Shown: one piece after another, positions 23,959 through 27,984 of the stretch
Layout: each line of letters starts with the position of its first letter
Numbering within the stretch: position 1 is the first letter of the stretch
Assembly (NCBI RefSeq): GCF_015169395.1
Contig: NZ_CP063458.1
Span: 6,014,001-6,078,000, forward strand
Direction: 5' to 3'
From: Humisphaera borealis
GTDB taxonomy: Bacteria > Planctomycetota > Phycisphaerae > Tepidisphaerales > Tepidisphaeraceae
Length of the DNA: 64,000 bases
The notes under the pieces: generated by a model
The model's database searches: none
What the model saw: only the letters and a program-made list of their open reading frames with translations
Told to the model about the DNA's origin: nothing
Position numbers and translations under genes: made by a program

Positions 23959-24000
23959 GTGTCACGCCGCCTGTCGGTAGCGAATGCTCGGGCAGAAGAG

Positions 24001-24108
24001 GCGAATATCGAACATCGAACTTCGAACACCGAACTTCGTATGAGGAGACTCGGTCTGGGCCCTTCCCATTCGGCGTTCGGTGTTCGGCGTTCGATGTTCG
24101 ATGTTCGC
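24001..24108. repeat. TTCGAACATCG/CGATGTTCG-word inverted repeat, murF-murE gap
   Basis: The left arm (24001-24038) is GAATATCGAACATCGAAC and TTCGAACACCGAAC; the right arm (24070-24108) is CGTTCGGTGTTCGG and CGTTCGATGTTCGATGTTCG. The gap holds no gene. Confidence 0.8.
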
Positions 24109-24127
24109 CTTTGATTTCATTGATGCC

Positions 24128-25591: not shown

Positions 25592-25739
25592 GGGACGTCC
25601 TTTTCCCGGAAACATCGGCAGATCCGAGGCTCAATGCCGGATGAAATGCCTGCGGCATCCGTGCCACGACCGACCGCCAGAGATTATCAGGACCAGCAGG
25701 AGGGTGCAAAGGGGTGCGACGCGACCCGTGCAGGGGCAG

Positions 25740-27050
25740 AGGGCAATCGCATCTCCTTTTGTCGATGGTTGTGTTTTGTACGGGTTGCGCTTTCTAACTT
25801 CTCTCGCTATCACTCCTTCACCGGTCGCGAAGCTTCGCTGGTAACAACTTTCATCTCCTGAAACGGAGCTTCGCCATGGATGGCCCTGCGACCAGTGGTA
25901 CCCTGCGCGCGTTTTCCAACCTCCCCGATCCTCGCGGCTGCAACGTGATTCACAAACTCCACGACATCCTCGTCATCTCCGTCTGCGCCGTTATCTGCGG
26001 CGCCGACGGCTGGGTCGACGTTGAACTCTATGGCAAGAGCAAGCTCTCCTGGCTTCGAACCTTCCTGGATCTTCCCCACGGCATCCCCTCTCACGACACC
26101 TTCGGTCGCGTCTTCGCCAAGCTCCATCCCGACGCCTTCGAGCAGTGTTTCAACGCCTGGGTCGGCGCGATCGCACAGTCCGCCGGCGGACGACTGATCG
26201 CGATCGACGGCAAGGCCATCCGCCGGTCCTTCGAACACGCCTGGGCCAGGAACAACATGACCCACATGGTCAGCGCGTTCGTCGACGCCCACCGGATGGT
26301 CTTCGGCCAGGTCGCCGTGGATGACAAGAGCAATGAGATCGAGGCGATCCCGCGGCTTTTGGGCCTGTTAGACATTCAGGACGCGACGGTGACGATCGAT
26401 GCCGCCGGCTGCCAGACGCAGATCGCCAGACAGATCGTCGATGCCGGCGGCAACTACGTGCTGTCGGTGAAGGAGAACCAGCCGAGGACCAGGCTTCGCC
26501 TCGTCCGACGCTGCACGCGAAGGTCAGGAAGCTGCTGGACGAAGCGATCCTGGGCGGCATGAAGGACGTGAGCCACGGCGTCCACGAGGAGTTCGACGCC
26601 GACCACGGCCGGCTGGACACCCGCAAAGTGTGGGTGATGGACGAAGTGCACTGGCTCGGCGACCTATGTCAGCAGTGGCCGGGACTGGCCGGCGTGATCG
26701 CGGTCGAACGCAAGCGGGAGGTGCTTGCCGGCAAGAGCAGCGTCGAGCGGCATTACTTCATCAGCAGCGTCGCAGGGACCGACGCCAGGGCGATGGCGGC
26801 GGCGATCCGCGGCCACTGGGCCATCGAGAACAAGCTGCACTGGCAACTGGACGTGAGCTCCCGCGAGGACGAGCGGCGGATCCGCAAAGGCTATGGTGCG
26901 GAGAACTACTCCCGGTTGTGCCGGCTGACGCTCAATCTTCTCAAGCGGGACAAGAGCATCAAAAACGGGATCCACGGGAAACGGTTAAAGGCAGGTTGGG
27001 ACGAGCACTACCTGCTCCGTCTGCTAACGACCTGAACATGCAATCGCCCT
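25740..27050 (+). mobile_element. ISAs1-family insertion sequence with target duplication
   Basis: Terminal inverted repeats are AGGGCAATCGCAT at the left and, read inward from the right, AGGGCGATTGCAT. The direct repeat GTGCAGGGGCA flanks the element at 25728-25738 and 27051-27061. The size, about 1.31 kb, fits the ISAs1 family. It landed between murE and greA, apparently in intergenic DNA. The intact ends and matching flanks suggest a fairly recent insertion, although the transposase is broken. Confidence 0.9.
25876..27035 (+). pseudogene. ISAs1-type transposase, frameshifted
   Basis: The first part (25876-26484) encodes an ISAs1/H-repeat transposase N-terminus: NLPDPRGCNVIHKLHDIL, ICGADGW, LPHGIPSHDTFGRVF, IAIDGKAIRRSF (first catalytic Asp) and VTIDAAGCQTQIA. 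The frame then slips. The rest (26508-27035) continues with PTLHAKVRKLL, YFISSVAGTDARAMAAAIRG, HWAIENKLHWQLDVSSRED (catalytic Glu) and LTLNLLKRDKS. A 23-bp stretch (26485-26507), bounded by CCGA on both sides, explains the shift; without it the protein reads ENQPTLH as in relatives. The element is therefore probably not autonomous. Confidence 0.9.
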
Positions 27051-27163
27051 GTGCAGGGGCATCTCATGGCTGTCGCAGGAAGGGTTAACCCCTCACGGCC
27101 GACATGGTTGACCGCGACGCGAACCGGAGCGCGACGGACCGATTTCCGAACGATTTCCGACCG

Positions 27164-27250
27164 TTGCCAATCGGGGAAACTGCCCTATACTGTGCCGTGC
27201 GATAAAAGTCCGCAAACCACCGCGCCCAGCGCGGTGGTTTGCGTTTTCTC
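27164..27250 (+). promoter_or_regulatory. greA promoter followed by leader terminator (GraL-like)
   Basis: A -35 box TTGCCA (27164-27169) and a -10 box TATACT (27186-27191) are 16 bp apart, predicting a start near 27198. Only 13 nt later a perfect 15-bp stem (27211-27225 with 27229-27243, loop CCA) is followed by TTTTCTC. This is a strong intrinsic terminator 108 nt before the greA ATG. Most transcripts should stop as RNAs of about 50 nt. E. coli greA has the same layout and yields the small RNA GraL. Confidence 0.75.
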
Positions 27251-27357
27251 AAGAGTCACGTTTTGACCCAGCCGGGCCACGAGCCCGCCTCAGTTTCAGC
27301 TTGCACGCGGGTCGCCTGCCACGGCGACCCGGGACTGCGATCGAAGGAGCGTTTGCC

Positions 27358-27825
27358 ATGCAGATAGTCAGCCCCGATGAGATGGAGCGTCTCCAGAAGA
27401 AGCGACAGGAGCTTTACGACCAGAAGCTCGATGTGCAGGACCGCATTCGCAAAGCTGCCGCCCTCGGCGACCTCTCGGAGAACGCCGAGTACCACTACGC
27501 CAAAGAAGAAAACCGCACCATCGGCCGGGAGCTGGCCGAGCTGGAATTGAAACTACGCACGGTCCAGGTGGTCGGCACCGACAACATCCCCAAGGACATG
27601 GTCTTCCTCGGCCATACCGTCAAGCTGCTGGACATGGACGACGAGAGCGAAACCATCGTCCGCCTGGTCGGCGAAGCCCAGCCGCCGACGGCGGGTTCCG
27701 ACGTCACCGACGTCTCGGCGACCAGCCCGATGGGCGAATCCCTGATGAAAGCCCGCGTCGGCGAAGTCATCAAGGTAAAGGCGCCGCGCGGCACGATGGA
27801 ATTCAAGATCGTTGAGATCCTGTAG
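27358..27825 (+). CDS. greA: Transcript cleavage factor GreA
   Basis: A 155-residue factor that rescues backtracked RNA polymerase by stimulating transcript cleavage. The coiled coil runs through the first 75 residues, with the tip motif GDLSENAEYHYAKEEN carrying the acidic residues needed for cleavage. The C-terminal FKBP-like domain ends VIKVKAPRGTMEFKIVEIL. The ATG at 27358 has GAAGGAG 8 nt upstream. The TAG stop lies within a GTAGGG hairpin. The upstream terminator suggests attenuation control. Confidence 0.94.
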   Translation: MQIVSPDEMERLQKKRQELYDQKLDVQDRIRKAAALGDLSENAEYHYAKEENRTIGRELAELELKLRTVQVVGTDNIPKDMVFLGHTVKLLDMDDESETIVRLVGEAQPPTAGSDVTDVSATSPMGESLMKARVGEVIKVKAPRGTMEFKIVEIL

Positions 27826-27842: not shown

Positions 27843-27853
27843 GCCCGGACGAC

Positions 27854-27952
27854 TGCAAAATGCAAAACATGCAATGAGAATTGCAAAATGAAGTTGCCGA
27901 TCGGTCGGCATGGTTCATTCTGCGTTTTTCATTGCATGTTTTGCATTTTGCA
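27854..27952. repeat. Second TGCAAAATGC-family inverted repeat
   Basis: Arms 27854-27892 and 27914-27952 (39 bp) pair with four mismatches. They share their first 24 bp with the perfect repeat at 3523-3611. It lies between greA and the convergent protease gene. Confidence 0.9.
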
Positions 27953-27984
27953 TTCCGGGTGTTCCGGTCTTCATCCTCGTTGAT

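Follow-up and report, generated by a model that had tools for sequence, protein, structure and literature searches.

Does greA in Humisphaera borealis control its own transcription through a short hairpin leader, as it does in Escherichia coli? The question arises from a 64,000-nucleotide stretch of the genome (hereafter the window), in which a first-pass annotation had noticed a promoter and a terminator hairpin before greA. It likened this arrangement to the leader that produces the small RNA GraL in E. coli, and proposed that the resemblance was either convergent or ancient. GraL is built on the same plan and is coupled to an autoregulation of greA that requires both the leader sequence and the catalytic activity of the GreA tip residues (PMC6829880). 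The GraL transcripts are 37-59 nt long and also act in trans on further messages, nudE being the E. coli example, and the authors who described them call the properties of GreA autoregulation unique and hard to classify (PMC6829880). A full explanation of it is still lacking.

The locus in the window has the layout that had been described. The greA gene (27358..27825, + strand) encodes a transcript cleavage/elongation factor of 155 aa, with matches to Pfam PF01272 and PF03449 above cut-off. A promoter search places a sigma-70-like promoter on the same strand at 27164..27191, with a -35 TTGCCA, a 16-nt spacer and a -10 TATACT; this is the top of five matches in 15 kb, with a shuffle average of 2.0, and bears out the earlier description of a good promoter. 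Transcription would start near 27198, some 13 nt before a terminator-like hairpin (27211..27243, + strand) whose stem begins 19 nt past the -10 box. The hairpin reads CGCAAACCACCGCGC-CCA-GCGCGGTGGTTTGCG, i.e., 15 perfect pairs and a 3-nt loop, with the core CACCG/CGGTG, and it is followed by the T-tract TTTTCT (27244..27249, + strand). The perfect 15-bp hairpin with a U-tract is therefore found where the first-pass annotation put it, and the placement of that hairpin within 15 nt of the promoter fits if the distance is counted from the start site. The rest of the greA 5' leader (27244..27357, + strand) brings the ATG at 27358 to 114 nt past the stem and 108-110 nt past the T-tract, in agreement with the 108 nt originally given. 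From the positions of the promoter and the T-tract, a short leader RNA of about 50 nt is predicted (27198..27250, + strand), with its 5' end at about 27198 and its 3' end at about 27247-27250. The leader hairpin folds at -30 kcal/mol (z -6.9), and 0 shuffles are equally stable. A strong hairpin with a T-tract is rare in this genome: in the 464-kb sample on which the terminator-hairpin background was estimated, there are four others with at least nine Watson-Crick pairs and TTTT within 10 nt.

Two further palindromes lie in the same part of the window. One, imperfect, occupies 27851-27955 directly 3' of greA (42-nt arms, 88%, fold about -62 kcal/mol), and its arm motif is absent in a 400-kb sample of the genome. 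The other, at 23999-24110, is also long, has arms of 49 nt (84%) and contains GAACATCGAAC-type repeats; it is located between a murF-like and a murE-like gene.

Conservation of the hairpin in relatives, which had been named as a check on the original observation, is complete among the sampled genomes of the order that have greA. Our sample of the order consisted of 26 genomes, representing one family. Greater detail comes from the 25 genomes with greA, in every one of which the gene is preceded by the promoter-hairpin-T-tract unit, with 20-147 nt between hairpin and start codon; the single genome without a greA match is 65% complete. A covariance model (R1), built from 24 greA leaders and leaving out the diverged leader L023 of genome G012, has its best match at the greA leader in 24 of the 26 genomes, with E values from 5e-10 to 3e-3. 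It misses in two cases, namely the 65%-complete genome and L023, a leader that is diverged yet visible by eye. Away from greA, R1 matches in the order genomes are weak (E of at least 1.5e-3), and five of these weak matches (E 0.0015-0.01) have no recognisable greA beside them and resemble other intergenic hairpins. Upstream of the hairpin, a promoter score of at least 10.5 is reached in 22 of the 25 genomes versus 2.9% of shuffled segments, the shuffles being the control for a search that picks the best of many positions. The -10 box lies 5-23 nt from the stem in 24 of the 25 genomes; in L023 the predicted promoter is far from its hairpin and is probably wrong. No more than about 16 nt separate the predicted start site from the beginning of the stem, and the predicted short RNA measures 36-55 nt in 24 of the 25 genomes. 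Across the leaders, loop length ranges from 3 to 18 nt and fold energies from about -18 to -30 kcal/mol. As for the protein, GreA of the other 24 order genomes is 57-71% identical to that of the window, and the finger-tip acidic residues D38 and E41, which align with D41 and E44 of E. coli GreA, are invariant in the 25 sequences.

The hairpin is not a dispersed element that happens to lie before greA. A DNA search of its own genome returned the locus itself and short chance matches only, which rules out a dispersed-repeat origin. Similarly, 19 of the 26 genomes contain the pattern CACCGCGC-N(2-8)-GCGCGGTG, each with one to three occurrences that lie mostly at greA, and its reversed control gave almost no matches. 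Descent from a repeat family unrelated to greA, the outcome that the first-pass annotation had regarded as fatal to its proposal, is thus excluded by the single-copy state of the hairpin and by the concentration of model matches at greA. An insertion sequence with a DDE transposase (Pfam DDE_Tnp_1), found in nine genome copies, does lie upstream of the greA promoter (25739..27051, + strand). It is flanked by a 10-bp target duplication, TGCAGGGGCA (27052-27061), from which 102 nt remain to the promoter, and it leaves the greA promoter and leader intact. The hairpin does not belong to this element, which stops at 27051 and is present in nine copies, whereas the genome has one copy of the hairpin. 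Of the nine copies (this one and L054-L061), eight, among them the one in the window, are 1313 bp long and have the transposase split in two frames (228 or 225 + 158 aa); copy L061, of 1290 bp, has one transposase frame of 378 aa. Such a split would mean either that the transposase is made by programmed frameshifting or that the split copies have spread in trans, with an intact copy as the source.

The pattern of change within the leader points to selection on specific parts of it. All 25 genomes share the stem core CACCG/CGGTG without a difference, and on the GreA tree the ten core bases show 0 changes, versus 11-14 at each of the ten positions just 5' of the stem. The CACC/GGTG anchors used in the search were picked after the first sequences had been seen, and eight of the ten core bases lay in them; all genomes carry the anchors, none having been lost, and the two unanchored bases are invariant too. 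An invariant core suggests that the sequence itself matters, beyond pairing. Pairing is maintained throughout the stem, with 97.5% of cells paired, four outer and inner pairs showing compensatory two-sided changes, and a covariation score above all 500 shuffles and all slid controls. Counted from the core, positions +8, +9 and +10 are T in 24, 25 and 24 of the 25 genomes, respectively. On the greA-sense side, 20 of 25 genomes have TTTT at most 12 nt from the stem, versus 2 of 25 on the opposite side. The U-tract of most relatives is interrupted (UUCGNNUUU), the bases between core and T's being UUCGNN; it is weaker than that of a textbook terminator, which counts against an attenuator.

On these sequence comparisons, the hairpin unit is probably a cis-acting attenuator of greA throughout the order. 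RNA polymerase would start near 27198 and, after about 13 nt, transcribe the strong hairpin and then the U-tract, where some transcripts would stop as an RNA of about 50 nt while the remainder read through into greA. Termination, its being partial and the regulation of its efficiency are all steps that we infer. Two relatives (L005 and L006) have only 20-24 nt from the hairpin to the ATG, a gap that fits no second promoter, so that greA transcription must cross the hairpin. Several relatives have an atpC-like gene divergent to greA, and the hairpin is therefore not the terminator of an upstream gene or operon. In the window genome, the atpC-like gene (G000:C1:825117-825356) is about 5.2 Mb from greA by record coordinates, and a murE-like gene stands in its place.

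Equilibrium folding, beyond whose reach co-transcriptional or factor-driven folds lie, gives the core pairs a probability of 0.97-1.0 in the full leader of all 25 genomes, and predicts no alternative antiterminator fold in the 25 whole leaders. A riboswitch, T-box or leader peptide is ruled out by the lack of room 5' of the hairpin and of any Rfam match: nothing came near a gathering score, the best hit over the hairpin being a chance microRNA model with 21.3 versus 90 bits. With space for neither a leader peptide nor an aptamer, and with no rival fold predicted, regulation would most likely act on the elongating polymerase itself, via GreA, NusA or NusG, or pausing. By analogy with GraL, GreA might feed back on its own level through the leader, a prospect that we find credible but to which we give somewhat less than even weight. 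We put forward only tentatively, as rather doubtful, the idea that throughout the order this leader senses, as an RNA, GreA or the pausing of polymerase; it would have evolved independently of GraL, and its stem core would be read sequence-specifically by the transcription machinery.

The nearly fixed T's at +8 to +10 and the UUCGNN interruption in most relatives would also suit a site at which the hairpin mainly stabilises a pause, where polymerase would halt at the T's about 8-10 nt past the core until GreA or Nus factors release it, thereby timing greA transcription. GreA does work on paused or backtracked complexes (PMC6829880). However, we think that pausing is unlikely to be the main role, because the 15-bp stem of the window directly abuts TTTT, which is the canonical terminator layout, and the fold energies of the leaders are terminator-like.

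Still less probable is an ordinary terminator that halts transcription coming from the insertion sequence or an upstream gene and so insulates greA. While the transposase gene of the window does read toward greA, the insertion, marked by a target duplication of its own, is a local event, and the hairpin is kept in relatives, several of which have the divergent atpC-like gene upstream. Moreover, the hairpin is 3' of the predicted greA promoter, and would cut greA's own transcripts. It is just as improbable that a greA repressor uses the palindrome as its DNA operator, or that a protein binds it in the RNA and so controls translation or stability of the greA mRNA. Such a site would explain why the core is invariant beyond the need for pairing between flanks saturated with change, but a dimeric DNA operator would not usually have a loop of such variable length, only the greA side has a conserved T-tract, and compensatory change maintains the pairs.

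How the putative attenuator relates to known greA leaders can be judged from its architecture and from its sequence. In the E. coli greA locus, a hairpin of sequence GCTGACCTGGG-CCCGGGTCGGT and its T-run lie 102 nt before greA. Both systems share the order of parts (promoter, short 5' segment, hairpin with U-tract, about 100 nt more leader, greA), a short RNA of similar length (predicted at 36-55 nt in the order, within reach of the E. coli range) and a GreA with both finger-tip acidic residues. In contrast, the hairpin sequences are unrelated, and most of the order relatives have an interrupted U-tract. R1 finds no match up to E = 1 in the E. coli greA locus (L254), which rules out sequence homology to GraL. 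The GraL-like plan is thus well supported as architecture, and kept in 25 of 25 genomes, but it does not extend to homology. Attenuators before greA/rnk, with antiterminators, were predicted by Naville and Gautheret in 2010 in Proteobacteria, Bacilli and Clostridia (PMC2965389). Compared by description, those clusters resemble the present leader in that the predicted terminator would stop greA transcription prematurely, and differ in their taxa and in the presence of an antiterminator, none being predicted here (PMC2965389). The published account of GraL does not include an antiterminator fold (PMC6829880). What is new is therefore an order-wide leader with its own sequence, while its functional kind, a greA attenuator, has already been reported (PMC2965389).

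Outside the order, no relative of the leader was found by R1 in 41 greA-containing loci elsewhere in the class (best E 0.07), and class-wide presence was rejected after the eight best non-order R1 matches were examined and proved to have no greA nearby. A count by eye and simple scan of 29 greA loci of the sister order, which include the truncated, mis-anchored and hence uninformative L243 and L246, gave about 2-4 with any hairpin and T's, of different sequences. Since most sister-order greA genes have no such hairpin, greA is not generally in need of one, a point against the attenuator reading. Two sister-order loci of the same genus (L248 and L251) have a different hairpin, CGACGCGGGAG-CTCCCGCGTCG, before greA with TTTT nearby; here the plan may have arisen independently. 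At E <= 1e-15, the window query has no GreA match in half of 28 wider-class genomes, most of them more than 90% complete, and in this class the gene may have a patchy distribution or have diverged strongly. A profile search of genome contigs, run with the GreA alignment, drew most of its matches from other phyla.

R1 matches neither GraL nor the greA loci elsewhere in the class, which makes an independent origin likelier than ancient inheritance. Of the two origins initially proposed, an ancient one is unsupported, and the order leader, as far as its sequence can tell, more likely evolved independently of GraL, by convergence.

That an unrelated sequence has the same layout, fixed across the order, suggests that bacteria have arrived more than once at limiting GreA by way of its leader. 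The 25 natural variants offer material for locating the features that matter, and the invariant core and the spacing of the T's point to where to look. If the leader is indeed an independently evolved sensor of GreA or of pausing, autoregulation of greA by leader termination would be something that arises repeatedly in bacteria.
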